This document shows positions 29,419 through 52,403 of a stretch of DNA of 64,000 nucleotides, in pieces (the stretch's first letter is position 1; every line of letters begins with the position of its first letter). The translations under genes and the position numbers were made by a program. The notes beneath the pieces were generated by a model, which saw nothing but the letters and a program-made list of their open reading frames with translations, was not told where the DNA came from and searched no databases. Location: contig NZ_JACIDJ010000001.1 of NCBI RefSeq assembly GCF_014196305.1, forward strand, positions 647,683-711,682, given 5' to 3'. Source of the DNA: Roseococcus suduntuyensis. GTDB taxonomy: Bacteria > Pseudomonadota > Alphaproteobacteria > Acetobacterales > Acetobacteraceae.

Positions 29419-30378
29419 TCAGCCCGCGGTCAGGTTCGCGGTGCGGACGATCTGGGCATAGGTGGCCGTGTCGCTGCGGATGCGGTCCCGAAGCGCGTCC
29501 GGCCCCTGCGCCAGCACGTCGATGCCGATGGCACCCAGCCGCGCCTGCGTCTCCTGCCGCCGGATGGAGGTGAGGAAGGCGTTGGACAGCGCCTCGCGCA
29601 CCGCCGGCGCCGCGCCCTTGGGCATCACCACGCCATACCAGGTGTCGGAGAGAAGCTGCGGGAAGCCCAGCTCCGCGCAGGTGGGCACCTCGGGCAGCAT
29701 GGCGTGGCGCGTGGCATTGACGATGCCCAGCGCGACCAGGCGGCCGTCGCGCAGCCCGGGCAGCACGTCCGGCAGGTTGCCGATGGAGTAGTCCACCCGC
29801 CCCGCCAGCAGATCCACCAGCATGGGCGCCACGCCGCGATAGGGCACGTGCTCGGCGTTCAGCCCGGCCAGGATCTTCAGGTGCTCCAGCCCCATGTGCT
29901 GGCTGGTGCCCTGGCCATTGGTGCCGAAGCTGAGGCCACGGCCCGGCGCCCGCGCCTTCGCCAGGAAGCCCGCGAAATCCGACGCGACGGAGGGGTGACA
30001 GACCAGGACATGCGGCGTGTAGACCAGCAGGGCCAGCGGGTCGAAATCCGCCTCGGCGTCATAGGGGCGCGGCTGGTGCAGCGTCTGGTTCACGGTGAAG
30101 CTGTTGGCGACCATCAGCACCGTCTGCCCATCGGCGGGCATGGCCTTCACGGCCTGCACGGCGACCAGCGTGCCCGCGCCGGGGCGGTTTTCCACCACGA
30201 CATTCTGGCCGAGCAGGGAGGCCGCGCCCTCCGCCACCGCGCGCCCGACCGTGTCGAAGCTGGAGCCGGGCGGGAAGGGAACGACGTAGCGGACGGGCGA
30301 GGCGGTGCGCCACCCGCCCTGCGCCAGGGCGGGGGTGGCAATCAGGCCGGGCAGGGCCAGCAGGGAACGACGGCGCAT
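29419..30378 (-). CDS. Bug family tripartite tricarboxylate transporter binding protein (TctC type)
   Basis: 319-residue periplasmic binding protein. The signal peptide is RRRSLLALPGLIATPALA. Family hallmarks are VRYVVPFPPGSSFDTVGRAVAEG, VVVENRPGAGTLVAVQAVK and the middle GLSFGTNGQGTSQHMGLEHLK...VPYRGVAPMLVDLLAGRVD. No TctA/TctB membrane genes are nearby, as is common for the expanded orphan Bug proteins in these bacteria. Strong Shine-Dalgarno GGAGG before the ATG. The ligand (a carboxylate) cannot be predicted. Confidence 0.93.
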   Translation of the reverse strand: MRRRSLLALPGLIATPALAQGGWRTASPVRYVVPFPPGSSFDTVGRAVAEGAASLLGQNVVVENRPGAGTLVAVQAVKAMPADGQTVLMVANSFTVNQTLHQPRPYDAEADFDPLALLVYTPHVLVCHPSVASDFAGFLAKARAPGRGLSFGTNGQGTSQHMGLEHLKILAGLNAEHVPYRGVAPMLVDLLAGRVDYSIGNLPDVLPGLRDGRLVALGIVNATRHAMLPEVPTCAELGFPQLLSDTWYGVVMPKGAAPAVREALSNAFLTSIRRQETQARLGAIGIDVLAQGPDALRDRIRSDTATYAQIVRTANLTAG

Positions 30379-30403: not shown

Positions 30404-30438
30404 TGACCCGCAAGTGCGGGTCATGCTGCAATGCAGCA
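30404..30438. promoter_or_regulatory. Two abutting perfect inverted repeats upstream of the Bug gene
   Basis: TGACCCGCA-AG-TGCGGGTCA (30404-30423) directly followed by TGCTGCA-A-TGCAGCA (30424-30438), in the 91-nt gap between the formamidase-like gene and the Bug gene (both minus strand). It could be operator sites or a double hairpin ending the upstream transcript. Confidence 0.4.
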
Positions 30439-30469
30439 AATCCTGTGCCAGCCGGGGGCGGTCAGCGCC

Positions 30470-39696: not shown

Positions 39697-40671
39697 ATGC
39701 TGACAACCTTTGCCGTGCGTGACGGGTCCCTGCTGCGTGGGGAGAAGGCGGCACCCCTGAGCGGGGCCGTCTGGATCGACCTGCTGGACCCCACGCCCGA
39801 GGAGGAGCGGCTGGTCGAGGCGGCGGTCGGCTTCGAACTTCCCTCGCGCGAGGAGATGCAGGAAATCGAAAGCTCCTCGCGCATGTATCGCGAGGGCGAT
39901 GTGCTGTTTCTCACCGCCAACTTCCTGCATGGCGTGGAGGGCAGCGACTATGAGTCCACCCCCATCTCCTTCGTGCTGGCCCCCTCCGTGCTGGTCACGG
40001 TGCGGCATGCCACGCCCAAGGCCTTCTCCGTCTTCACCGCCCGTTGCCAGAAGACGCCGGAGGCGCTGCTGGGCAGCCCCGACGCGGTGCTGCTGCACCT
40101 GTTCGGCCAGATCGTGGACCGGCTGGCGGATATCCTGGAGCGGATCGGCCTCGACATCGACCGCGCCAACCAGGATGCCTTCCGCGCCGCCCGCAGCGCC
40201 AAGAAGGTGACGCAGAAGGACCAGGACCTGCGCTCGGTCCTGCTGACGCTGGGCCTGGTGGGCGACCTCACGGCCCGGACCACGGACACGCTGCTTGGCC
40301 TCACGCGCATCCTCACCTTCATGACCGCGGAGAAATCGGCGGTGCGCAAGGAGAACCAGCACCTCATCAAGACGCTGGTGCGCGACGTGCGAAGCCTGGT
40401 CGAGCACGGCAATTCCATGAACCACAAGGCGACCTTCCTGCTCGACGCCGTGCTGGGCATCATCAACGTCGAGCAGATGAACATCATCAAGACCTTCACC
40501 GTGGTGAGCGTGGCGCTGATGCCGCCCACCCTCATCGCCAGCATCTACGGCATGAACTTCCAGCACATGCCGGAGCTGGAATGGCCCATCGGCTACCCCC
40601 TGGCATTGCTGGCCATGGTGCTGAGCGCGCTGGGGCCCGTGCTCTACTTCAAGCGCAAGGGCTGGCTGTAG
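39697..40671 (+). CDS. corA: CorA family magnesium transporter
   Basis: 324-residue CorA-type channel. A long cytoplasmic alpha/beta and helical funnel domain is followed by two C-terminal transmembrane helices. The signature YGMNFQHMPEL sits between the helices, after FTVVSVALMPPTLIASI, and the protein ends with a basic tail (YFKRKGWL). Length is normal. It carries Mg2+ and possibly Co2+/Ni2+. It is followed by a strong hairpin that separates it from the Mrp operon, so it is probably transcribed independently. Confidence 0.94.
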   Translation: MLTTFAVRDGSLLRGEKAAPLSGAVWIDLLDPTPEEERLVEAAVGFELPSREEMQEIESSSRMYREGDVLFLTANFLHGVEGSDYESTPISFVLAPSVLVTVRHATPKAFSVFTARCQKTPEALLGSPDAVLLHLFGQIVDRLADILERIGLDIDRANQDAFRAARSAKKVTQKDQDLRSVLLTLGLVGDLTARTTDTLLGLTRILTFMTAEKSAVRKENQHLIKTLVRDVRSLVEHGNSMNHKATFLLDAVLGIINVEQMNIIKTFTVVSVALMPPTLIASIYGMNFQHMPELEWPIGYPLALLAMVLSALGPVLYFKRKGWL

Positions 40672-40675
40672 CCGG

Positions 40676-40712
40676 CGCGGCGTCCGGTTTTCCGGACGCC
40701 GCGTTCGGCTTT
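40676..40712 (+). terminator. Strong terminator-like hairpin after corA
   Basis: Perfect 12-bp stem CGCGGCGTCCGG / CCGGACGCCGCG with a TTTT loop, 5 nt past the corA stop; a broken T-rich stretch (TTCGGCTTT) follows. It isolates corA from the downstream sigma54-type promoter. Confidence 0.6.
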
Positions 40713-40718
40713 GCGAAC
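40703..40718. promoter_or_regulatory. Candidate upstream activator dyad
   Basis: Inverted repeat GTTCG-N6-CGAAC centred about 98 nt upstream of the predicted sigma54 start site, a usual distance for NtrC-family enhancer sites. It partly overlaps the terminator tail. Tentative. Confidence 0.3.
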
Positions 40719-40782
40719 AGGCGCTGACGTCAACCGGGCCGCCGCGCCGCGCCTTTCCGCGCTTTCCGCCGGGGCATGCGGT

Positions 40783-40798
40783 TGGCACGGCTGTTGCA
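40783..40798 (+). promoter_or_regulatory. Sigma54 (RpoN) promoter upstream of mrpA
   Basis: TGGCACG-N4-TTGCA, a perfect match to the -24/-12 consensus with the required GG-N10-GC spacing (GG at 40784-40785, GC at 40796-40797). The predicted transcription start is near 40809, two bases before the mrpA GTG. It is the only such match I found in the window's intergenic DNA. The operon it precedes encodes its own NtrC-family activator. Confidence 0.8.
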
Positions 40799-40810
40799 GC
40801 ATTCGCCACC

Positions 40811-43087
40811 GTGAACTGGATCCTCGCCCTCATCCCCTGCCTGGCGTTGCTGGCCGTTCCGGCGGTAGCGCTCGGCCTGCGCGCGCGACCCGCGCTCGCC
40901 CCCGCGCTGGCGCTGCTGCCGGCGACGCTCTTCGGCCTCATCCTGCTGCTGCCGCTGGGCGCCACCTTCCGCCTGGACTGGATGCCGGCCTTCGGCATCG
41001 GCTTCGGCTTCCGCCTGGATGGGCTTTCGCAGCTGATGGCGCTGCTCATCACCGGCATCGGCGCCGGCATCTTCCTGTTCTCGGGCAGCTACATGACCAG
41101 CTACCCGAAGCAGCACCGCTTCATGGCGGTGCTGACGCTGTTCATGGCGGCGATGCTGGGCGCGGTGCTGGCCGATGACCTGATCGTGCTGTTCATCTTC
41201 TGGGAGCTGACCAGCCTCGCCTCCTTCATGCTGATCGGCTTCGAGGCCCACAAGCCCGCCGCCCGTCGCGCCGCCCAGCAGGGCTTGCTGGTGACGGTCT
41301 CGGGCGGGCTCGCGATGCTGGCCGGCATCCTGCTGCTGGGCAGCGCGGCCGGCACCTTCACCATCTCCGAAATCCTGGCGAACCGCGCGGTGCTGGCCAC
41401 GCACGCCTTCACGCCCTGGATCATCGTGCTGGTGGCGATGGGCTGCTTCGCGAAGTCGGCGCAGTGGCCGCTGCACATGTGGCTGCCCAACGCGATGGCG
41501 GCACCCACCCCCGTCTCGGCCTACCTGCATTCCGCCACGATGGTGAAGCTCGGCGTCTATCTGCTGGCGCGGCTGAACCCCGCCTTCCAGGAATGGGCGC
41601 TGTGGCAGGGGCTGCTGACCGGCGCGGGCACGCTGACCATGCTGACCGGCGCCGTGCTGGCCCTGCGCGAGCGCGACCTGAAGCGCAAGCTCGCCTGGTC
41701 CACCGTGGTGGCGCTGGGCACGCTGGTGACGCTGATCGGGCTGGAGGAACCGCTGGCGGCCACCGCGGCCGTGGTGTTCCTGCTGGTGCACGCGCTCTAC
41801 AAGGCGAGCCTGTTCCTCGTGGCCGGCATCCTCGACAAGAAGGCCGGCACGCGCGACGCGCTGATGCTGCGCGGCCTCGGCCGGCACATGCCGCTCACCG
41901 CCATCGCGGCACTTCTGGCCGCGCTCTCCATGGCCGGCGCGCCGGGCTTCATCGGCTACATGGCCAAGGACCTGCTGTTCACCGTGCAGCTCGGCGTGCC
42001 GGGCCTGCTGCCCCTGGTGGCGCTGCTGGTCAACGCGGCCATGGTGGTGGTGGCCGGCGTGGTCGCGGTGCGCCCCTTCTTCGGCAAGCCCATGGAAATG
42101 GAGCGCCAGGCCAAGGACCCCGGCTTCACCATGCTGGCCGCGCCGCTGACCCTGGCCATCCTGGGTCTCGTCTTCGGCCTGGCGCCGGCCCTGATCTCGG
42201 TGAACCTGGTCGAGCCCGCGGCCGCCGCCATCCTGGGCGAGCCCACCGGCGTCGCGCTCGGCGACAAGCAGGCGACCGAGATCGTCTACTACCTCTCGCT
42301 CGTGGTGCTGGGGCTGGGCGTCATCGCCTTCCTCGCCTGGACGCGGTTGCAGCCGCGCCTGGCCGCGCAGACCTGGCTCGACGACTACGGGCCGGATGCC
42401 GCCTATGGGCGCATCCTGCGCGGCGTGTCCGTGATCTCCGGCGCGGTGACGCGCCGCGTGCAGACCGGCAGCCTGCGCTTCTACATCGGCGCCAGCGTGG
42501 TGCTGATGTTCGGCGGCACGCTGGTGCTGCTGGTGGCGGGCGGTGGCCTCGGCCTGCCCTCGGCCGACCCGTTGCCGCTGCCGCACCAGGCGGTGCTGGT
42601 GGGCCTCGTCATCGCGGGGGCGGTGGCCGCCTGCCGGCTGCAGATGCTGTTCGCGCAGGTGATGGCGGCGGCGGTGGTGGGCTTCGGCGTCGGCATCCTG
42701 TTCCTGACGCTGGGCGCGGCGGACCTCGCCTTCACCCAGTTCACCGTCGAGACCATCGCCATCGTGCTGCTGGTGGCCATCCTCGCGCGCCTTCCCTTCC
42801 GCGAGCTGGACGCGCGCCGGCGGGAGGAGCACCGCCGCGACGGCGCCATCGCCATCGGCGCGGGCGTGGTGGGTTTCCTCACGCTGCTGGCCGTGCTGTC
42901 GGTGCCCTTCGACACGCAGATGCCCGACTGGATGGGCGCCGCCGCCTGGCCCGAGGCCAAGGGCCGCAACGTCGTCAACGTCATCCTGGTGGATTTCCGC
43001 GCGCTGGACACGCTGGGCGAGATCGCGGTGCTGCTGATCGCGGCGCTGGCGGCCACGGTGCTGCTGCGCCGCGCGCGGGGGAAGTGA
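40811..43087 (+). CDS. mrpA: Mrp Na+/H+ antiporter subunit A
   Basis: 758-residue multi-helix antiporter subunit homologous to NuoL. The proton-channel core contains FRLDGLSQLMALLITGIGAGIFLFSGSYM, DDLIVLFIFWELTSLASFMLIGFE and FAKSAQWPLHMWLPNAMAAPTPVSAYLHSATMVKLGVYLLAR. The C-terminal MbhD/MbhE-like part is present (LFAQVMAAAVVGFGVGILFLTLGAADLAFTQFTVETIAIVLLVAIL and NVVNVILVDFRALDTLGEIAVLLIAALAA). The MrpB domain is not fused. The start is a GTG without Shine-Dalgarno, about 2 nt from the predicted sigma54 start site, so the mRNA may be leaderless. It is the first gene of a same-strand run to 53064. Confidence 0.95.
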   Translation: MNWILALIPCLALLAVPAVALGLRARPALAPALALLPATLFGLILLLPLGATFRLDWMPAFGIGFGFRLDGLSQLMALLITGIGAGIFLFSGSYMTSYPKQHRFMAVLTLFMAAMLGAVLADDLIVLFIFWELTSLASFMLIGFEAHKPAARRAAQQGLLVTVSGGLAMLAGILLLGSAAGTFTISEILANRAVLATHAFTPWIIVLVAMGCFAKSAQWPLHMWLPNAMAAPTPVSAYLHSATMVKLGVYLLARLNPAFQEWALWQGLLTGAGTLTMLTGAVLALRERDLKRKLAWSTVVALGTLVTLIGLEEPLAATAAVVFLLVHALYKASLFLVAGILDKKAGTRDALMLRGLGRHMPLTAIAALLAALSMAGAPGFIGYMAKDLLFTVQLGVPGLLPLVALLVNAAMVVVAGVVAVRPFFGKPMEMERQAKDPGFTMLAAPLTLAILGLVFGLAPALISVNLVEPAAAAILGEPTGVALGDKQATEIVYYLSLVVLGLGVIAFLAWTRLQPRLAAQTWLDDYGPDAAYGRILRGVSVISGAVTRRVQTGSLRFYIGASVVLMFGGTLVLLVAGGGLGLPSADPLPLPHQAVLVGLVIAGAVAACRLQMLFAQVMAAAVVGFGVGILFLTLGAADLAFTQFTVETIAIVLLVAILARLPFRELDARRREEHRRDGAIAIGAGVVGFLTLLAVLSVPFDTQMPDWMGAAAWPEAKGRNVVNVILVDFRALDTLGEIAVLLIAALAATVLLRRARGK

Positions 43088-43090
43088 GCC

Positions 43091-43489
43091 ATGAAGACCA
43101 GCTTCATCATGAACGCATCGGCCCGCTATGTGCTGTGGGCCTGTGTCCTCCTCTCCCTCTTCGTGCTGCTGCGCGGCCACAATGAGCCGGGCGGCGGCTT
43201 CATCGGCGGGCTGATCGGTGCGCTGGGCTTCGTCTTCCACGCGCTGGCGCGCGGGGCGGGGGCCACGCGCGCGGTGCTGCGGCTGCAGCCGCTGACCTGG
43301 GCGGGCATCGGCCTGCTGTTCGGCATCCTGGCCGGCCTGCCGGCGCTGCTGTTGTTCGGGGAGCCCTTCCTCACGCAGCAATGGCTGGGCGCCACCCCCA
43401 TCGGCACCACCGTGCTGTTCGACCTGGGCGTCTATCTCGTCGTGCTGGGCTTCGCGCTCGCCTTCGTGCTGCCCTTCATGGAGGCCTGA
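43091..43489 (+). CDS. mrpB: Mrp antiporter subunit B
   Basis: 132-residue four-helix MrpB/MnhB protein. The signature [27 protein letters not shown] is clear, and [20 protein letters not shown] closes the protein. It begins 3 nt after mrpA. A separate mrpB is the seven-gene arrangement; in many proteobacteria it is fused to subunit A. Confidence 0.95.
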
Positions 43490-43493
43490 GCCC

Positions 43494-43928
43494 ATGGAAT
43501 TCCTCCTGGCGCTCCTCTTCGGCGTGCTGCTCTCCGCCGCCATCTACCTGCTGATGGCGCGTTCCCTCGCGCGGTCCATCCTGGGCCTGCTGCTGCTGGG
43601 CAATGCGGCGAACATCGCGATCATCGCCAGCGGCCGCGTGCTGGGCTGGGCGCCGCCGCTCGTGGCGCCCGGCGCCAATGCCCTGGTGGCCGATGCCTCC
43701 AACCCGCTGCCCCAGGCGCTGGTGCTGACGGCCATCGTCATCTCCTTCGGCCTCACGGCCTATGTGATGGTGCTGAGCTGGGCGGTCTGGCGCGGCAAGG
43801 GCACGCTCGACACCGAGGCCCTGCGCGTCGCCGAACCGCGCGGCCTGCCCGCCGCCGATGCGCGTGAGGCCGCGGAGGCCGAGACTTTGGCCGCCGACCT
43901 GCTGCCCACCCGCACGGGAGCCCGCTGA
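43494..43928 (+). CDS. mrpC: Mrp antiporter subunit C (NuoK-like)
   Basis: 144-residue three-helix NuoK homologue. Conserved regions are SAAIYLLMARSLARSILGLLLLGNAANIAIIASGR, PLVAPGANALVADASNPLPQALVLTAIVISFGLTAYVMVL, with the NPLPQALVLTAIVI run diagnostic for MrpC. The cytoplasmic tail of about 45 residues is Ala/Glu-rich and not conserved. It is joined to mrpD by a 1-nt overlap (TGATG). Confidence 0.95.
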   Translation: MEFLLALLFGVLLSAAIYLLMARSLARSILGLLLLGNAANIAIIASGRVLGWAPPLVAPGANALVADASNPLPQALVLTAIVISFGLTAYVMVLSWAVWRGKGTLDTEALRVAEPRGLPAADAREAAEAETLAADLLPTRTGAR

Positions 43929-45442
43929 TGGCCACCCGCGCCGACTGGCTGCTCGCGCTGCCACTCCTCCTGCCGCTGCTGGCCTGCGCGGCCACGGCGG
44001 CGCTGCAATCCCGCCGTGACCTCCAGCGCGGCATCACGGCGGTGACGGCCGTGGGCCTGCTGCTGGCCTCCGCGGCCCTGGTGGCCGAGGTGATCGCGCG
44101 CGGCGTCATCGCCTCGCAGATGGGCCAGTGGCCCGCACCCTTCGGCATCACGCTGGTGGCGGACCTCTTTGCCGCCTCCATGGTCGCGATCACGGCGCTG
44201 ATGTACGCCGCCACCGCCCTCTACGCGCGCGGCGACACGGACGTGCTGGAGAACGAGGCGCTGTGGCACCCGCTGCTGGCCGCGCTGGCCCTTGGTGTCG
44301 GCGGCGCCTTCCTGGCGGGCGACCTGTTCAACCTCTACGTCTGGTTCGAGGTGATGCTCATCGCCTCCTTCGGCCTGATCGTGCTGGGCGGCGGGCGCGA
44401 GCAGCTGGATGGCGCGGTGAAGTATGCCATGCTGAACCTGCTGGCCACGACGGTGTTCCTGATTTCGGTCGGCATGATGTACGGGCTGACGGGCACGCTG
44501 AACCTGGCCGACATGGCCCGCCGCATCCCCGAGATCGAGAACCAGGGCGCGGTCGCGGCGGTGGCCTTCCTCATGCTGGCGGCCTTCGGCGCCAAGGCGG
44601 CGGTGTTCCCGCTGTTCTTCTGGCTACCGGCCTCCTACCACACGGCCATCGCGCCGGTGGCGGCCATCTTCGCCGCGCTGCTGACGAAGGTCGGCGTCTA
44701 CGCGCTGATCCGCATCGTCACGCTGCTGCTGCCCGAGGGCCATGCCTGGGTGGCGCCGCTGATGTGGTTCCTGGCCGCCGGCACCATGGTGGTGGGCGTG
44801 CTGGGCGCGGCGGCGCATTGGGAAATCCGGCGCATCCTGTCGTTCCACATCATCAGCCAGATCGGCTACATGATCGTGGGCATCGCCATCGCGACGCCCT
44901 TGGCGCTGGCGGGTGCCGTTCTCTACATGCTGCACCATATCGTGGTGAAGGCGAACCTGTTCCTGGTGGCGGGTGTGATCCGCCGCGCGGGCGGCACCTT
45001 CTCGCTGGCCACGCTGGGCGGGCTGTGGCGCCGCGACCCGTGGCTCGGTCTGCTGTTCGCCATTCCCGCGCTGTCGCTGGCCGGCATTCCGCCGTTCTCC
45101 GGCTTCTGGGCCAAGCTGTTCGTGTTGAAGTCGGGCTTCGACGCGGGGTGGTATGTGCTGGCGGGCATCGCGCTCGCGACGGGCATCCTCACCCTCTACT
45201 CCATGCTCAAGATCTGGATGGAGGCCTTCTGGAAGGAAGTGCCCGAGGGCACGCCCGAGCTGCCGCCCATCACCGGCGCCACGCGCTGGTTGCTGCTGGC
45301 GCCGGTCGCGGGGCTTGGCCTCATCACCATCACCATCGGGCTCTGGACCGAGCCCTTCGCCGCCTTCGCGCTGGCTGCCGGCGAACAGCTCGCCAGCCGG
45401 GAGGCCTACATCACCGCCGTGATGGGAGTGATCCGGCCATGA
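43928..45442 (+). CDS. mrpD: Mrp antiporter subunit D (NuoM/N-like)
   Basis: 504-residue NuoM/NuoN-like subunit with about 14 helices. Key runs are FLAGDLFNLYVWFEVMLIASFGLIVLGG (with the antiporter-essential Glu), FGAKAAVFPLFFWLPASYHTAIAPVAAIFAALLTKVGVYALIRI (with the conserved Lys), and HIISQIGYMIVGIAI followed by LYMLHHIVVKANLFLVAGVI. It is essential for ion exchange in Mrp complexes. Overlaps mrpE by four bases. Confidence 0.96.
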   Translation: MATRADWLLALPLLLPLLACAATAALQSRRDLQRGITAVTAVGLLLASAALVAEVIARGVIASQMGQWPAPFGITLVADLFAASMVAITALMYAATALYARGDTDVLENEALWHPLLAALALGVGGAFLAGDLFNLYVWFEVMLIASFGLIVLGGGREQLDGAVKYAMLNLLATTVFLISVGMMYGLTGTLNLADMARRIPEIENQGAVAAVAFLMLAAFGAKAAVFPLFFWLPASYHTAIAPVAAIFAALLTKVGVYALIRIVTLLLPEGHAWVAPLMWFLAAGTMVVGVLGAAAHWEIRRILSFHIISQIGYMIVGIAIATPLALAGAVLYMLHHIVVKANLFLVAGVIRRAGGTFSLATLGGLWRRDPWLGLLFAIPALSLAGIPPFSGFWAKLFVLKSGFDAGWYVLAGIALATGILTLYSMLKIWMEAFWKEVPEGTPELPPITGATRWLLLAPVAGLGLITITIGLWTEPFAAFALAAGEQLASREAYITAVMGVIRP

Positions 45443-45792
45443 CCGAGAAAGCCCCGACCCCACGCCCCTGGAACATCCTGGCCTGGCTCTGGCTGCTGGT
45501 GCTCTTCCTGCGGGAGCTGGTGCTGTCCGCCTGGGCCGTGATCAGCGCCACGCTGGCGCCCAATGTGCGCGCGCGCTCCGGCGTGGTGGCGGTGCCGCTG
45601 CGGCTGCGTTCCGCGGCCGGCATCACGCTGCTGGCCGACATGGTGACGCTGACGCCCGGCACCACCGCGCTGCATGTCTCGGAGGACCGCAGCATTCTCT
45701 ACGTGCATGTCATGGACATCGAGAGCCCCGAAGCCGTCCGCGCCAGCATCGCGCAACGGCTGGAGCGCCCGGCGATGCGGGTGTTGCGATGA
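45439..45792 (+). CDS. mrpE: Mrp antiporter subunit E
   Basis: 117-residue MrpE protein, shorter than many (about 160) because it retains essentially one N-terminal hydrophobic hairpin (ILAWLWLLVLFLRELVLSAWAVISATL) followed by the soluble domain RARSGVVAVPLRLRSAAGITLLADMVTLTPGTTALHVSEDRSILYVHVMD, which is the family signature. The start is the ATG overlapping the mrpD stop (ATGA). Confidence 0.93.
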   Translation: MTEKAPTPRPWNILAWLWLLVLFLRELVLSAWAVISATLAPNVRARSGVVAVPLRLRSAAGITLLADMVTLTPGTTALHVSEDRSILYVHVMDIESPEAVRASIAQRLERPAMRVLR

Positions 45793-46079
45793 GCTTCCTG
45801 ACCGTCGCCCTCATCTTCTCCGCCCTGATGGTCGCGGTGGCCGTGGGCCTGACCGGCTGGCGCATGCTGCACGGCCCGGGCATCGCCGACCGCGCGGTGG
45901 CCATGGACCTGCTGGGCCTGCTGGCCGTGGCGGCCACCGCGCTGGTGGCGCTGGGCGGCGGCTACCTCGCGCTGCTCGACATCGCGCTGGGGCTGGGCCT
46001 GGTGGGCTTCATCGGCGCCGTGGGTGTCGCCACCTTCATCAAGCGCGCATCCGAACCGCCGGAGGACCAGGATGTCTGA
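45789..46079 (+). CDS. mrpF: Mrp antiporter subunit F
   Basis: 96-residue three-helix MrpF. GWRMLHGPGIADRAVAMDLLGLLAVAATALVAL is the family hallmark (GP...DR..A.D), followed by LDIALGLGLVGFIGAVGVATFIKR. Overlaps mrpE by four bases and mrpG by eight. Confidence 0.95.
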   Translation: MSFLTVALIFSALMVAVAVGLTGWRMLHGPGIADRAVAMDLLGLLAVAATALVALGGGYLALLDIALGLGLVGFIGAVGVATFIKRASEPPEDQDV

Positions 46080-46812
46080 GATCGTCGCGGCGCTGCTGCT
46101 GCTGTCGGGCGCCACCATCTCGTTGATCGCGGCCATCGGCGTGGCGCGCCTGCCCGATGCCTTCCTGCGGATGCATGCCGCCACCAAGGCCGGCGTGGTC
46201 GGCGCGGGGCTGACGCTGCTCGGCGTCGCCTTCGCCTTCGACACGGGCGAGGCCTGGTTCCGCGTCACCCTCATCGTGGTCTTCCTGCTGGTGACGGTGC
46301 CCATCTCTTCCCACGCGCTGGGGCGCGCGGCCTATGTGGGCGGGGCGCCCATGTGGTCGGGCACGGTGATGGACGACCTCAAGGGCGTGCTGCCCCGCCA
46401 CGCGATCGACGCGGACCCCGAGGCGCAGCGCGCCATCGCCATGCCGGTGGGCGCGGCCGGCCCCGAGACCGGTGCCCGCCCCGCGCCGCATGCTGCTGGC
46501 CCTGGCCGATGGGGCGGGTGCCGCCGCCTCCCTGCGCGCCGCGCTGGAGGTGACCGCCGGCCCGCGCACCGAAGTGACGCTGCTGAGCCTGCTCTGCACG
46601 CCCAGCCTCAACCAGACCGGTCCCATGCCCGTGGGCGGCGCGCATTTCGGACGCCGCCTGGTGGAGGGCCGCTTCGCCAAGGCGCGCGAGGCCGCGGCTT
46701 CGCTCGCCACCCAGATGGAGACCTTCTGCCAGACCCAGGGCTACCATTTCCGCATGCGCCACGAGGAGGGCGATGCGGGCACCCTGCTGGGCCATGCCGC
46801 CGCGCATCATGA
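46072..46812 (+). CDS. mrpG: Mrp antiporter subunit G with an abnormal out-of-frame C-terminal extension
   Basis: The first 115 or so residues are a normal MrpG: three helices with LLLSGATISLIAAIGVARLPDAFLRMHAATKAGVVGAGL, VTVPISSHALGRAAYVGG and WSGTVMDDLKG. Beyond about residue 135 the frame stays open for a further 110 or so codons of Arg/Pro/Gly/His-rich sequence that is simply the shifted reading of the next gene (46472-47272). As read, the protein is 246 residues against about 110-130 normally. Likely the native stop was lost, or one base is wrong near 46460-46490. The conserved part is intact, so the subunit is probably functional. Confidence 0.8.
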   Translation: MSEIVAALLLLSGATISLIAAIGVARLPDAFLRMHAATKAGVVGAGLTLLGVAFAFDTGEAWFRVTLIVVFLLVTVPISSHALGRAAYVGGAPMWSGTVMDDLKGVLPRHAIDADPEAQRAIAMPVGAAGPETGARPAPHAAGPGRWGGCRRLPARRAGGDRRPAHRSDAAEPALHAQPQPDRSHARGRRAFRTPPGGGPLRQGARGRGFARHPDGDLLPDPGLPFPHAPRGGRCGHPAGPCRRAS

Positions 46813-47272
46813 CCTCACGGTGCTGCCGCGGGGCACCTGGTTCGACCACGCGCAGGCGCTGGAGGAGGGCTATGCCGCCCAGCGTTCGGCGCGCGTGTCG
46901 CTGCCCGGGCTGCTGCTGGCCGCGCCCGACTTCACCATGCCCGGCGCGCTGCACTTCCTGCATGAGGGCGACCTGGCCTCCAGCGAGGCGCTGAAGCGCT
47001 TCCTCGGCCTCTCTTTCCTCGCGCATCTGCCGTTGACCATCACGGGGCTCGACCTCGACGGCGCGGATGCGGCGCTGGAGGAGGCGGTGGCGCTGGCGGC
47101 GGCGCGCGAACGCCCGGTGCATCGCGGCCCCGCGCTGCTGCACCCGGATCGCCCGGTGCCGTTGCCGGCCTTCACGGGTGGGGCCTTGGCCATCATCCCC
47201 GCCCGCTCCTCTTCCGGGCGGACGGCGTGGCGCAGCCTGCGCGAGATGGAGGCCTCGGTCCTTCTCGCCTGA
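46472..47272 (+). CDS. Usp-like protein inside the Mrp operon
   Basis: 266-residue soluble protein that resembles tandem universal stress proteins: an N-terminal RRMLLALADGAGAAASLRAALEV start, a central DLTVLPRGTWF, and a C-terminal GALAIIPARSSSGRTAWRSLREMEASVLLA at the place where Usp domains carry their nucleotide-binding loop. The canonical G-2x-G-9x-G-S/T motif is not evident, so ATP binding is uncertain. The start is a GTG (46472) or the ATG at 46490; the first 341 nt overlap the extended mrpG frame. Its place between mrpG and the kinase suggests a regulatory or accessory role for the antiporter (inference). Confidence 0.65.
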   Translation: MPAPRRMLLALADGAGAAASLRAALEVTAGPRTEVTLLSLLCTPSLNQTGPMPVGGAHFGRRLVEGRFAKAREAAASLATQMETFCQTQGYHFRMRHEEGDAGTLLGHAAAHHDLTVLPRGTWFDHAQALEEGYAAQRSARVSLPGLLLAAPDFTMPGALHFLHEGDLASSEALKRFLGLSFLAHLPLTITGLDLDGADAALEEAVALAAARERPVHRGPALLHPDRPVPLPAFTGGALAIIPARSSSGRTAWRSLREMEASVLLA

Positions 47273-47285
47273 TTTCGCGGGCGGT

Positions 47286-47305
47286 CGGGGTGGCGGGCCG
47301 CCCCG
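47286..47305 (+). other. Hairpin in the 45-nt gap between the Usp-like gene and the kinase
   Basis: CGGGGTGG / CCGCCCCG arms (one G-U pair) around a 4-nt loop. It is the only gap longer than 20 nt within the 40811-53064 run and could be a processing or partial termination point. Confidence 0.35.
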
Positions 47306-47317
47306 GCCTGCCCCCAT

Positions 47318-48751
47318 ATGGACCGCATGCCGCTTCGCTACTCCCGTGCCTGGAACGCGCTGCCCATCGCGCTCAGCCTGCCGCTGCTGGCGGGGCTGGC
47401 GGCCTTCGCGGCGGCGCTGATCGTGGCGCAGGTGGCCACACGCTCATTGGAACGGGAATTCGCGCGGGAGGCGGCGCGGCTGGGCGATGTGTATCTCGAC
47501 GGCATCTCGGCGGCGCTGATCGAACCCCTCCGCGCGCGCGACCGCCGCGCCATCGAGGCCGCGATGCTGCGCGCCCTGGGGTTCCAGGAGGGCGTGCGGG
47601 AACAGCGGCTGGTCGTGGTGCCCGAGCCAGGCGCCGTGCCCATCGTGGTCGGCGCGCGCGAGGACCCGGCCCTGCCGCCCCCCTTCACCCAGGGCCGCCA
47701 AGGCGCATGGGAAGTGTCGCCCGATGCCCGCACCGCATGGGCGCAGCGCACTTTGCTGGTGGAGGGCGCGCCCCCCGCCCAGGTCGCCGCGCAGCTGGAC
47801 TTCGCGCGGTCGCTGGAACGGCGCGCGCAGCTTGGGCCGCTGCTGCTGGGGCTGGAGGGGATGCTCGCCGCCCTGGCCGGCATGCTGGTCGCGTTGCTGA
47901 CACGCCGGGCCTTGGCGCCGCTGCTGGCCGTCACCGAGGCGCTGGACCGCGCCGGCGCCGGCGATTTCCGCCCGAGCATTGCCGCGCAGCGCCCGCCCGC
48001 CGGCACCGAGGCCGCGCGCCTCATCGAGGCGGTGGACCTCATGTCCGCGCGCCTCGCGGAGCGCGAACGCCTCGCCGCGCGCCTCGCGGAACGCGCCCAG
48101 GCGGCGGAACTGGGCGACCTCGCGGCCACGGTGGCGCATGAGGTTCGGAACCCCCTGGCGGGCATGCTGACCGCGCTGGGCTCGGCCCGCCGCTTCGGCG
48201 AGAGCCGGGCGGCGCGCGAGGAGGCGCTCGATCTTGTGGAGCGGGGCCTCCGGCAAATCCAGCAGGTGGTGCAGACCACGCTGGACGTTCATCGCGGCAC
48301 CCTGGCCCCTCGCCCCCTGACGCGCGAGGATTTGGAGGATGTGGTGCGCCTGGTCCGCCCGGAGGCAGAGCGGCGCGGCCTGCGCCTGGAACTGGCTGGC
48401 GAACTGCCGGAACCCTTCCCCGCCGACGCGCTGCCGGTGCGTCAGGCGCTGCTGAACCTGCTGCTGAACGCGGTGGCGGCGACCGGCGCGGGCGGCGTGG
48501 TGTCCCTGGGTGTCAGGCGCGAGGCGGATGGCACGCTGCGCCTGGAAGTGGCCGATGAGGGCGGCGGCCTGCCCGAACCCGCCCTGCGCCAGATCGAGGG
48601 GGGAGCGCGCAGCGGGCCGGGCCTCGGGCTGTCGGTGGTGATGGCGCAGTTGGCGCGCCTCGATGGCCGCATCGAGGTGGACTCCCGACCCGGCGAGGCC
48701 ACGCACATCGCCCTCTTCCTCCCGCCCGCGCCGGAGGGGGCGGCGGCATGA
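47318..48751 (+). CDS. NtrB-like sensor histidine kinase
   Basis: 477-residue membrane histidine kinase. Two transmembrane helices (about 16-40 and 170-195) flank a periplasmic sensor of about 130 residues without a recognisable family. Then follow a HAMP-like linker (RRALAPLLAVTEALDRAGAGDF), a HisKA domain with the phosphoacceptor in TVAHEVRNPLAGML, and the ATPase domain with N-box LLNLLLNAVAAT, G1 VADEGGGLP and G2 GPGLGLSVVMAQL. HEVRNPL is the NtrB/sigma54-activator kinase type. It overlaps the response-regulator gene by ATGA, so they are a cognate pair. The stimulus may be ionic or pH stress, given its operon. Confidence 0.92.
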   Translation: MDRMPLRYSRAWNALPIALSLPLLAGLAAFAAALIVAQVATRSLEREFAREAARLGDVYLDGISAALIEPLRARDRRAIEAAMLRALGFQEGVREQRLVVVPEPGAVPIVVGAREDPALPPPFTQGRQGAWEVSPDARTAWAQRTLLVEGAPPAQVAAQLDFARSLERRAQLGPLLLGLEGMLAALAGMLVALLTRRALAPLLAVTEALDRAGAGDFRPSIAAQRPPAGTEAARLIEAVDLMSARLAERERLAARLAERAQAAELGDLAATVAHEVRNPLAGMLTALGSARRFGESRAAREEALDLVERGLRQIQQVVQTTLDVHRGTLAPRPLTREDLEDVVRLVRPEAERRGLRLELAGELPEPFPADALPVRQALLNLLLNAVAATGAGGVVSLGVRREADGTLRLEVADEGGGLPEPALRQIEGGARSGPGLGLSVVMAQLARLDGRIEVDSRPGEATHIALFLPPAPEGAAA

Positions 48752-50058
48752 GCGTCCCCGTGGTCATCATCGAGGATGACGAGGTGCTGGGCGGCGCCCT
48801 GGTGCAGCGCCTGCGGCTGGAGGGCTTCGCGCCGCGCTGGGCGCGCACCCTGGCCGAGGGCGAGGCGCTGCTGGCGCGCGGCCCCCGGCCACTCTGCGTG
48901 CTGTGCGACATGCGCCTGCCCGATGGCTCGGGCGAGGCGCTGCTGCTGCGGCTGATGCCAAGCCTGGGCGCCACCCCCGTCATCGCCATGACGGCCTATG
49001 GCGGGGTGGAGCAGGCGGTGCGCCTGGTGCGCGCGGGCGCCGATGACTACCTGACGAAACCCTTCGAGATCGAGGCGGTGCTGGCGCGGCTCTCGGCGCT
49101 GAGCCCGCTGGCCGAACCGCCCGCCCCCGCCGGGACGGTGGGCTGGCAGTCGCCCCCCATGCGCGCGCTGGAGAACGACCTCACGCGCCTCGCGCCCGCC
49201 CTGGCCCCGGTGCTGCTGCTGGGCGAGAGCGGGGCGGGCAAGGAGGTGGCCGCGCGCCGCCTGCACGCCATGGGCCCGCGCGCCGAGGCGCCCTTCGTCG
49301 CGCTCAACTGCGCCGCCATCCCGCGCGACCTGCTGGAAAGCGAGGTTTTCGGCCATGAGCGCGGCGCCTTCACCGGCGCCGCCGAACGCCGGCTGGGCGC
49401 CGCCGAGCGCGCCGGCGCCGGCACCCTGCTGCTGGACGAGGTGGCGGAGCTGGAACCTGCCCTTCAGGCCAAGCTGCTGCGCCTGCTGGAGGACCGGCGC
49501 TTCCTGCGCGTGGGTGGTGCGAAGGAAATCCCGCTGGAGGCGCGCGTGGTGGCGGCCACCAACGCGGACCTCGCCGCCCGTGTGGCGGAGGCGCGCTTCC
49601 GCGGCGACCTCTACTACCGCCTGGCCGTGGTGGAGCTGCATGTCCCGCCGCTGCGCGAACGCGCGGAGGACATCCTGCCGCTGGCCCGCGCCCTGCTGGC
49701 CGAAAGCGCCCGGCAGGCGGGGCGCGTTGATCTCTCGCTGACGCCCGAGGCCGAGGCGGCGCTGGAAGCCCATCCCTGGCCCGGCAATGTGCGGGAACTG
49801 CGCAACCGCATCGAGCGCGCGGCCCTCCTGGCCCCCGCCGCCGCGCTGACGCCGGCCGACCTGTTCCCCGGGGCTGTCGCGGCTCCCGCGCCGCAGACCC
49901 TGGCCGAGGCGCGCGACGCGGCCGAGCGCGCGCATATTCAACGCATCCTGGCGCGCTGCGGGGGCCGCATGGCCGATGCGGCGCGCCTGCTGGGCATTTC
50001 GCGCACCACGCTGTGGGAACGCGCGAAGCGCCTGGGCCTTTCCCCTCAAGAGGACTGA
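48748..50058 (+). CDS. NtrC-family sigma54-dependent response regulator
   Basis: 436-residue enhancer-binding protein with three domains. The receiver (1-115) has the acidic pocket EDDE, phosphoacceptor Asp at 53 (LCDMRLPDGSG), MTAYG and the Lys in YLTKPF. The AAA+ domain has Walker A GESGAGKE, the sigma54-contacting GAFTGA loop (HERGAFTGAAE), Walker B LLLDEVAEL and WPGNVREL. The C-terminal Fis-type helix-turn-helix is RILARCGGRMADAARLLGISRTTLWERAKRLGL. It is the expected activator for the sigma54 promoter in front of mrpA, 8 kb upstream in the same operon, which would create a positive feedback loop (inference). Confidence 0.95.
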   Translation: MSVPVVIIEDDEVLGGALVQRLRLEGFAPRWARTLAEGEALLARGPRPLCVLCDMRLPDGSGEALLLRLMPSLGATPVIAMTAYGGVEQAVRLVRAGADDYLTKPFEIEAVLARLSALSPLAEPPAPAGTVGWQSPPMRALENDLTRLAPALAPVLLLGESGAGKEVAARRLHAMGPRAEAPFVALNCAAIPRDLLESEVFGHERGAFTGAAERRLGAAERAGAGTLLLDEVAELEPALQAKLLRLLEDRRFLRVGGAKEIPLEARVVAATNADLAARVAEARFRGDLYYRLAVVELHVPPLRERAEDILPLARALLAESARQAGRVDLSLTPEAEAALEAHPWPGNVRELRNRIERAALLAPAAALTPADLFPGAVAAPAPQTLAEARDAAERAHIQRILARCGGRMADAARLLGISRTTLWERAKRLGLSPQED

Positions 50059-50067
50059 GACCTTCCC

Positions 50068-51051
50068 ATGGAACTCGCGCTCTGGCTGCTCGGCGGCCTG
50101 GTCATGCTGGTGCTCGGCGGCGAATTGCTGGTGCGCGGGGCGGTGCAGATCGCCGGGCGCCTGGGCATTTCGCCGCTGCTGGTGGGGCTGACGGTGGTGG
50201 CCTTCGGCACCTCCACGCCCGAACTCGTCACCAGCGTGCAGGCCTCGCTGGCCGGGTCGCCGGGCATCGCTTTGGGCAACATCGTCGGCTCCAACATCGC
50301 CAATGTGCTGCTGATCCTGGGGGTGGCCGCGCTGCTCTGCCCCGTCGCGGTCAATTCGCGCGCCCTGGCGCGGGATGGGGGCCTGGGCTTCCTGGCCGCG
50401 CTGGTGCTGCTGGCGGTGGGCCTGTTCTGGACGCTGGACCGCGTGGTGGGTGTGCTGCTGCTGCTGGGCCTCGTCGGCTACATCGTCTTTGCCTTCCGGC
50501 AGGAGCGCGTGGCGGAAGGCGCCGATCATGGCGCCGCCTATGACAAGGCCGAGGCCTTCGCCGCCGTGCAGCCCCCCGCCTTCCCTCTGTCGCGCGCGCT
50601 GGGCGGGCTGCCGGGCGCCATCCTGCAGCTGGTGGCGGGGTTGGGCCTGATCGTGGCCGGGGGCGCCGTGCTGGTGGACACGGCGGTGACGCTGGCGCGC
50701 GCGCTGGAGGTGTCGGAGGAGGTGATCGGTCTGACCATCATCGCGGTCGGCACCTCGCTGCCCGAGCTGGTCACCTCGGTGGTGGCCGCGCTGCGCCGGC
50801 AGGCGGATGTGGCGCTGGGCAATGTGCTGGGGTCGAACATCTACAACATCCTGGGCATCGCGGGCGCCACGGCCTTGATCGCGCCCACCGAGGTGCCGGC
50901 CGGCATCGCCCATTTCGACGCCTGGGTGATGGTGGCGGCCGCGCTGCTGCTGCTGGTGGTGGCGCGCACGGGCTGGCGGGTGGGTCGGCGCGAGGGCGGG
51001 GTTCTGCTCGCCTGCTATGCGGCCTATGTCTGGAGCGCCTGGCCCGCCTGA
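50068..51051 (+). CDS. CaCA family sodium/calcium (K+-independent) exchanger
   Basis: 327-residue ten-helix cation/calcium antiporter of the YrbG type. The two alpha repeats are plain: VVAFGTSTPELVTSVQASLAGSPGIALGNIVGSNIANVLLILG and IIAVGTSLPELVTSVVAALRRQADVALGNVLGSNIYNILGIAG, each with the ion-binding Glu (PELVTS) and GSNI. A short acidic loop links the halves. It probably extrudes Ca2+ using Na+ or H+ gradients, which fits with the Na+/H+ antiporter upstream. It starts 9 nt after the response-regulator stop. Confidence 0.94.
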   Translation: MELALWLLGGLVMLVLGGELLVRGAVQIAGRLGISPLLVGLTVVAFGTSTPELVTSVQASLAGSPGIALGNIVGSNIANVLLILGVAALLCPVAVNSRALARDGGLGFLAALVLLAVGLFWTLDRVVGVLLLLGLVGYIVFAFRQERVAEGADHGAAYDKAEAFAAVQPPAFPLSRALGGLPGAILQLVAGLGLIVAGGAVLVDTAVTLARALEVSEEVIGLTIIAVGTSLPELVTSVVAALRRQADVALGNVLGSNIYNILGIAGATALIAPTEVPAGIAHFDAWVMVAAALLLLVVARTGWRVGRREGGVLLACYAAYVWSAWPA

Positions 51052-51071
51052 GCCAGTCTGGAGGAACGCCA

Positions 51072-52403
51072 TTGGGGCGCACGCTGGCCCACCCCGCCCG
51101 CATCATCCCGCTGGGCTTCCTGGCGGCGATCCTGCTGGGCACCGCCCTGCTGATGCTGCCCGTCTCGCGCGCCGGGCCGGGGGGCGCGCCCTTCATCACG
51201 GCGCTGTTCACCGCGACCTCGGCCGTGTGCATCACCGGTCTCGCGGTGGTGGACACGGCCACCTACTGGTCGGGCTTCGGCCGCGGCGTGATCCTGGCAC
51301 TGTTCCAGCTGGGCGGCTTCGGCATCATGAGTGGCGCCACGCTGCTGGGCCTGCTGGTGGCGCGCCGGCTGCGCCTCGGCACGCGGCTGATCGCGCAGCA
51401 CGAGACGCGCAGCCTGGGGCTCGGTGATGTGAAGCAGGTGCTGTGGCTGGTGCTGGGCATCACCGTGGTGGTGCAGACGGCCGCCACGCTGGCGCTGGCG
51501 CTGCGGCTGCGCCTCGGCCACGGCATGGGCTGGGAGGATGCGCTGTGGCACGGGCTGTTCCATGCCGTCTCGGCCTTCAACAATGCGGGCTTCTCCACCT
51601 TCAGCGACAGCATGGTGGGCTTCGCGCGGGACCCGCTGGTGCTGGCGCCGGTGGGGCTCGCGGTGTTTATCGGCGCCATCGGCTTCCCCGTGGTGGCGGA
51701 TCTGCTGCGCGACCCCTGGCGGCCCGCGCGCTGGTCGCTGCACGCGAAGCTGACGCTGGTCGCCACGGGTATCCTGTTCGGCGCCGGCCTGCTGGCCCTG
51801 CTGGCCTTCGAATGGGACAACGCCGCCACCCTGGGCGCGCTGGAATGGCCGCACCGGCTGGTGAACGCCGCCTTCCATTCCGCCATGCTGCGCTCCGGCG
51901 GGCTGAACAGCGTGGATGTGGGGCTGATGCGCGACGAGACGCTGACCGTCAGCTACGCGCTCATGTTCGTGGGCGGCGGCAGCGCCGGCACGGGCGGCGG
52001 CGTGCGCGTCACCACGCTGGTCGTGCTGGCGCTGGTGGTCTGGGCGGTGGCGCGGGGCGAGCCGGATGCCAACATCCATGGCCGCCGCATCCCCATCGAG
52101 GTCCAGCGCCAGGCGCTGGCGGTGGTGATGCTGGCGCTCGCGCTCTGCGCCGGCGGCACGCTCGCGCTGCAAATCCTGACGGATTTCCCCCTGCGCGACG
52201 TGATGTTCGAGGTGATCTCGGCCACCGCCACGGTGGGCCTGTCCACCGGCATCACGCCCGACCTTCCACCGGCCGCGCAATTCGTGCTGTCGGTGTTGAT
52301 GTTCACGGGCCGGGTGGGCACCGTGACCGTCGTCACGGCCCTGGCCCTGCAACGCGGCCTGAACCCCTACCGCTATCCCGAGGAGCGCCCGATCGTTGGC
52401 TAG
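51072..52403 (+). CDS. ktrB: Ktr/Trk K+ uptake channel subunit, KtrB type
   Basis: 443-residue K+ translocating subunit with four pseudo-repeated M1-P-M2 units. Filter loops visible are SAVCITGLAVVDTATYW, AFNNAGFSTFSDSM, FHSAMLRSGGLNSVD and ATVGLSTGITPDLP, each with the central Gly. It is smaller than TrkH (about 480) and paired with a single-RCK partner, so KtrB is the better name. The intramembrane loop GGGSAGTGGGVRVTT is Gly-rich as in Ktr. The start is a TTG with a strong GGAGG 7 nt upstream. Overlaps ktrA by eight bases. Confidence 0.93.
   Translation: MGRTLAHPARIIPLGFLAAILLGTALLMLPVSRAGPGGAPFITALFTATSAVCITGLAVVDTATYWSGFGRGVILALFQLGGFGIMSGATLLGLLVARRLRLGTRLIAQHETRSLGLGDVKQVLWLVLGITVVVQTAATLALALRLRLGHGMGWEDALWHGLFHAVSAFNNAGFSTFSDSMVGFARDPLVLAPVGLAVFIGAIGFPVVADLLRDPWRPARWSLHAKLTLVATGILFGAGLLALLAFEWDNAATLGALEWPHRLVNAAFHSAMLRSGGLNSVDVGLMRDETLTVSYALMFVGGGSAGTGGGVRVTTLVVLALVVWAVARGEPDANIHGRRIPIEVQRQALAVVMLALALCAGGTLALQILTDFPLRDVMFEVISATATVGLSTGITPDLPPAAQFVLSVLMFTGRVGTVTVVTALALQRGLNPYRYPEERPIVG

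Follow-up and report, generated by a model that had tools for sequence, protein, structure and literature searches.

A candidate sigma54 promoter abutting the mrpA start codon and a kinase-activator pair inside the same Mrp antiporter gene array

The locus analysed here raises the question of whether a sigma54-type sequence just upstream of mrpA is a promoter for the Mrp antiporter genes and, if so, what activates it and whether the message begins at the start codon itself. The window, meaning the whole 64,000-nt stretch of DNA that was analysed, carries TGGCACG and TTGCA separated by GCTG at 40783-40798 on the + strand, with GG at 40784-40785, GC at 40796-40797 and 10 bases between them. In the sigma54 consensus a GG and a GC element are separated by ten bases within a TGGCAYG-N4-TTGCW context, and the initial annotation had called the site an exact match to it with GG-N10-GC spacing, which it is.

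40783 to 40798, + strand: putative sigma54 -24/-12 promoter core, TGGCACGGCTGTTGCA, from the motif match and its retention 5' of mrpA in relatives

When both strands of the 64-kb window were searched this was the single exact match, and 100 shuffles gave a mean of 0.02 matches, in line with the original estimate that well under one would be expected by chance in a window of this size. There are two exact matches in the 4.14-Mb genome. When up to one mismatch was allowed, 16 matches were found genome-wide compared to 13 for a reversed control pattern; because these counts scarcely exceed the control, the match is no proof of a promoter and, taken by itself, the sequence is only suggestive. The pattern TGGCAYN5TTGC gave 16 matches versus 4 for its reversed control, and the genome has one match for rpoN (Sigma54_DBD, 227.9 bits). 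Another site of sigma54 type in the window, TGGCACAGGATTTGCT at 30435-30450 on the - strand, lies 72 nt 5' of the start codon (ATG) of a gene for a TctC-family receptor (29422-30378, - strand). The evidence that argues convincingly for a promoter before mrpA is comparative.

Mrp subunits A to G are all present and in order downstream of the motif, as in known Mrp/Mnh/Sha antiporter operons. They are followed by a tandem universal-stress-protein-like (USP-like) part, a sensor kinase, an NtrC-type response regulator (bEBP) and an exchanger, with array neighbours overlapping or lying no more than about 45 nt apart.

40811 to 43087, + strand: mrpA, 758 aa, GTG start (Pfam Proton_antipo_M, Proton_antipo_N, MbhD, MbhE)
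43091 to 43489, + strand: mrpB (Pfam MnhB)
43494 to 43928, + strand: mrpC (Pfam Oxidored_q2)
43928 to 45442, + strand: mrpD (Pfam Proton_antipo_M)
45439 to 45792, + strand: mrpE (Pfam MNHE)
45789 to 46079, + strand: mrpF (Pfam MrpF_PhaF)
46072 to 46812, + strand: mrpG reading frame (Pfam PhaG_MnhG_YufB)
46472 to 47272, + strand: USP-like part, in a different frame from mrpG (fold comparison)
47318 to 48751, + strand: membrane sensor histidine kinase (HisKA, HATPase_c)
48748 to 50058, + strand: NtrC-type response regulator (bEBP) with receiver, AAA+ and Fis-type HTH (Sigma54_activat, GAFTGA at residue 206)
50068 to 51051, + strand: sodium/calcium exchanger family protein, likely the last array gene (Pfam Na_Ca_ex, 214.7 bits)

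A Pfam search of the USP-like part returned no match, and its assignment comes from an AlphaFold2 model (mean pLDDT 78.4) whose best Foldseek hit was 3ab8, a tandem-type USP (E 9.5e-8). The mrpG frame of the window is short (246 codons) because the frame changes near 46500, either through a real change or through a sequencing error; in relatives a single frame spans mrpG and the USP-like part.

The mrp array thus contains a kinase and a GAFTGA-bearing sigma54 activator of its own (47318-50058). Systems of NtrC-type sigma54 control such as NtrBC, ZraSR and AtoSC combine a membrane kinase, a REC-AAA+-Fis regulator, tandem upstream dyads and a -24/-12 promoter. All four features have counterparts here, the dyads and the promoter as candidates. 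What differs is that the genes to be controlled would be those of an Mrp antiporter, that kinase and regulator are encoded within the array and that the promoter abuts the start codon. The GAFTGA motif was present in 20 of 21 bEBP orthologues, with GAFTSA in L192. The nearest NCBIfam models were AtoS and ZraS for the kinase and PEP_resp_reg, ntrC and AtoC for the regulator, and both proteins fell below the curated cut-offs of the best 25 models for each. An alignment of 14 kinases and a predicted model with a pTM of only 0.39 show two hydrophobic helices with some 125 residues between them, which is consistent with sensing outside the inner membrane. At L053 13275-14704, in a close relative (G004), the kinase frame ends after 193 codons.

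For the comparison, 42 mrpA loci were used: 10 from the genus, 24 more from the family, six from other families of the class and two MAG loci labelled Methylobacterium and Burkholderiaceae. The family set filled 27 of 28 places (three were already in the genus set); G273 was dropped, its contig beginning inside mrpA. L038-L047 were outside the compared set. Kinase and bEBP follow mrpG in 19 loci, 16 complete loci lack them and seven are cut by contig ends (L022, L048, L050, L168, L194, L197, L200) and were left out of the Fisher counts. Eighty further loci were also considered: L058 duplicates L049, L059 and L060 were moved to the main set, and 77 served as outside controls. The core motif was defined as GGCAYG-N4-[TGA]TG between 160 bp 5' of the gene and 20 bp inside it.

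Conservation of GG-N10-GC before orthologous mrpA genes, on which the initial annotation had made its promoter reading depend, was found to follow the kinase-bEBP pair. The core was present in 16 of the 19 loci with the pair and in none of the 16 complete loci without it (Fisher 3e-7), and a stricter form ending in TTGC gave 10/19 versus 0/16 (Fisher 5e-4), these p-values being guides only because the relaxed motif and dyad patterns postdate viewing of the sequences and the rows are related. The core was also seen in three of the seven contig-cut loci. Two candidate activator sites of 16 bp each were identified further upstream in the window, about 98 and 119 bp 5' of the expected start:

40682 to 40697, no strand assigned: candidate upstream activator dyad 1, GTCCGGTTTTCCGGAC (inverted-repeat pattern)
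40703 to 40718, no strand assigned: candidate upstream activator dyad 2, GTTCGGCTTTGCGAAC (inverted-repeat pattern)

At least one such dyad precedes mrpA in all 19 pair-bearing loci versus 0/16 without the pair, and two or more occur in 10/19 versus 0/16. None of the 77 outside-control loci has either form of the motif or two dyads. Promoter motif, dyads and pair therefore co-occur and are jointly absent at mrpA. A chance match was rejected on the co-occurrence with the pair, though the genome-wide counts alone would not have rejected it, and with rpoN in the genome the proposal of a sigma54 promoter 5' of mrpA is supported by this comparison. The pair label changes six times on the tree, with at least four changes forced by well supported branches. 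In L049 and L164 the pair, promoter and dyads are jointly absent; these two fall in a supported group in which the four remaining rows keep the core. The next gene detected after mrpG in these two loci is the exchanger, as if the block of USP, kinase and bEBP had been lost.

Some variation was seen within this pattern. The -12 C is replaced in six pair-bearing loci (L059, L172, L173, L190, L191, L193), and the core pattern is wholly absent in pair-bearing L174, L192 and L193. G013 (75% MrpA identity) keeps the core; the gene just 5' is not corA and the contig ends before any pair. L027 has TGGCAC and TTGCA at the wrong spacing and was not accepted. The mrpG frame also differs between the groups, with 384-441 codons in 17 of the 19 pair-bearing loci (136 in L060) versus 119-157 codons in the 16 pair-less loci except L165 (385). 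The extension is the USP-like part in close relatives, and similarity is weak or sub-threshold in more distant loci. Unlike known Mrp/Mnh/Sha operons, then, these loci combine a predicted sigma54 promoter and cognate bEBP with, in 17/19, an extended mrpG frame.

The position of the motif bears on how mrpA would be translated. In sigma54 promoters +1 lies about twelve nt after the C of the GC element. Twelve nt past that C is 40809, and the GTG at 40811 would therefore receive a 2-nt leader, so that the mrpA message would be leaderless or almost so, with 0-3 nt predicted from geometry.

40808 to 40811, + strand: predicted transcription start region giving a 0-3 nt leader, from sigma54 geometry and the kept promoter-to-start-codon distance

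The GTG lies 28 nt after the -26 base, and as first remarked no Shine-Dalgarno sequence was seen before it. The 62 open codons 5' of the GTG include no ATG, GTG or TTG and one CTG (40724). A later start was not favoured: the first in-frame alternative in the window, a TTG, comes 36 nt later and would cost the first 12 residues. Distances were determined in 22 motif-bearing loci, in all but L174 and L193 with a looser motif pattern, which was also matched in two pair-less loci, at -30 in L199 and within the coding sequence in L178. In 17 of the 22, an mrpA-frame start codon was located 27-30 nt past the -26 base; in five (L059, L174, L191, L192, L193) the start codon fell outside this range, and L022, L054 and L060 have an additional in-frame GTG at 19-21 nt. 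GTG is the start in the window and six other loci, and ATG is used in, for example, L051, L055, L167, L170, L172 and L173.

The other exact motif in the genome (G000:C4:143080; L003 1501-1530) sits 29 nt 5' of the ATG of a gene whose transglycosylase SLT domain scores just over the Pfam cut-off (22.3 versus 21.3 bits). Among 20 loci of this gene from 17 selected genomes, the window's genome included, the motif is found 5' in 17 and the start at 27-29 nt in 15; the three loci without the motif (L242-L244) are less similar second copies. Because the same geometry is found at mrpA and at the transglycosylase gene, sigma54 messages with almost no leader appear to be a recurrent arrangement. By contrast, the nearest plausible start codon follows other sigma54-like sites of the genome (L245, L251, L256, L257, L259) at about 61-107 nt, and the remaining sites of the 16 are inside frames or unassignable, in an assignment whose frame filter missed the transglycosylase gene itself. 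With moderate confidence we favour a broader proposal, namely that this alphaproteobacterial group has a class of sigma54 leaderless messages in which a set promoter distance fixes the codon at +1 (mrpA, lytic transglycosylase). At mrpA this would couple an activator-dependent switch to Shine-Dalgarno-free translation of an Mrp system whose MrpG, in relatives, carries a USP-like part.

A different possibility is that sigma54/bEBP control is real but the main start lies elsewhere or a second promoter gives a leadered transcript. Some data point this way: the fixed distance is missing in the five loci named above, and in the available portion of one report (PMC3616915) non-AUG leaderless starts such as GTG are inefficient in E. 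coli and the 171 mapped leaderless starts of S. meliloti are all AUG. However, the distance of 27-30 nt is kept in 17/22 diverged mrpA loci and one of 27-29 nt in 15/20 loci of an unrelated gene, and besides the missing Shine-Dalgarno a simple scan of 40600-51200 found no sigma70-like promoter. A leadered message thus seems rather unlikely, and a leaderless or nearly leaderless one is preferred.

It could also be that the pair acts chiefly on another target and that the mrpA motif is a relic. The same genome has a paralogous kinase-bEBP pair (L222 11720-14462, - strand; G000:C7) whose bEBP is 54% identical and has GAFTHA in place of GAFTGA. This pair adjoins a molybdopterin oxidoreductase gene that is accompanied by similar dyads and a site of sigma54 type, and that gene has an ordinary leader with a GGAGG-like site. 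Orthologues of the bEBP at about 73-75% were found in G010 and G002; in G002 the orthologue adjoins mrpG on another contig, and in G010 it is on another contig with no mrp genes beside it. In G079 and G229, which have no pair at mrp, the rest of the genome yielded no close orthologue (top values 47% and 51%, partial query coverage). A close orthologue was likewise not found in G013 (74% complete), though its mrpA has the motif, and in the genome of L022 mrpF, mrpG, USP, kinase, bEBP and exchanger are on another contig. The paralogous pair and the G010 case give the idea of another target some substance, but motif, dyads and pair are present together and absent together at mrpA, which makes it improbable.

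The arrangement of the dyads was also examined. The pattern GTYCGGN4SCGRAC was matched at 12 genomic places, with 17 matches counted by strand compared to 38 for the reversed control, i.e. no enrichment. The mrpA dyads are the only close-together pair among these places, and another of the places is beside the paralogous pair on contig C7. Across loci the distance from dyad start to the -26 base is 57-113 bp, with most values close to 57, 69, 80, 89, 101 and 111; those of L022 (63, 93) depart from these positions. The strongest spacing period between 5 and 20 bp was 10.8 bp (R 0.78; 33 sites in 20 loci, excluding L053 and L054 as near-copies of the window), and it was reached by 0/2000 random placements within 55-115 bp and by 0/5000 with one site per locus, kinship being left in throughout. 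The search pattern did not impose this phasing, which is compatible with a looping activator that contacts a single face of the DNA. That the dyads are merely RNA hairpins, for example one terminating corA, and that the promoter match is a product of chance is hardly credible: dyad 1 does lie within a perfect 12+4+12 inverted repeat directly 3' of corA, and neither motif matches with up to one mismatch nor dyad matches show genome-wide enrichment, but no T-run terminator was called at the dyads, L050 keeps its dyads despite a different upstream gene, the dyads are helically phased to the promoter and the motif is kept in relatives. With no T-run and with the dyads of L050 kept, a terminator reading was not favoured.

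We consider it highly probable that the sigma54 promoter at 40783-40798 drives the array, that the array's own kinase and bEBP act on it through the dyads and that the mrpA message is leaderless or nearly so. Under this model an RpoN-dependent transcript would carry mrpA to mrpG, the USP-like part, the kinase, the bEBP and the exchanger as a single operon. The kinase may sense an envelope, ion or pH signal and phosphorylate the bEBP, which would bind both dyads and, as an AAA+ oligomer, open the sigma54 polymerase complex. Since kinase and bEBP are encoded within the array, they would boost their own expression, a proposed self-amplification. The message would begin 0-3 nt before the GTG, and translation of mrpA would start from that end with little or no leader. 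Four points go beyond the initial annotation: the activator encoded in the array, the dyads, a further gene that shares the geometry and the MrpG-USP fusion of relatives.

Its remark that it knew of no described sigma54 control of an Mrp operon agrees with the literature searched, which covered few subscription papers. In the parts of these sources that were available, Mrp genes are described in Nitrospira with sigma54 appearing solely in a reference title (PMC12516955), mrp genes and rpoN are named separately and unconnected (PMC2700814, PMC6754898), and a term search of the available text of PMC12316311 did not return antiporter, Mrp or leaderless. Nor did the same searches turn up a report that combines sigma54 promoters with leaderless translation. 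With its predicted 5' end on or close to the initiation codon, the mrpA message resembles the leaderless mRNAs of other Alphaproteobacteria, S. meliloti and B. japonicum. For B. japonicum, the available text of one study gives 320 starts within 0-10 nt, 192 of them exactly at the start codon, and its authors state that no specific promoters had been described for leaderless genes (PMC4842269). According to the portions available, however, the leaderless genes of B. japonicum have an extended -10 type motif (PMC4842269) and those of C. jejuni follow sigma70 -10 sequences (PMC3847290), unlike the sigma54 promoter predicted here.

Because pair, dyads and promoter are present together or missing together, these loci provide natural controls. 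If the model is true, Mrp antiporters would gain a dedicated signal-driven regulator with an input accessible to genetics, and mrpA and the transglycosylase gene would be two natural, kept cases that join sigma54 promoters to leaderless translation.
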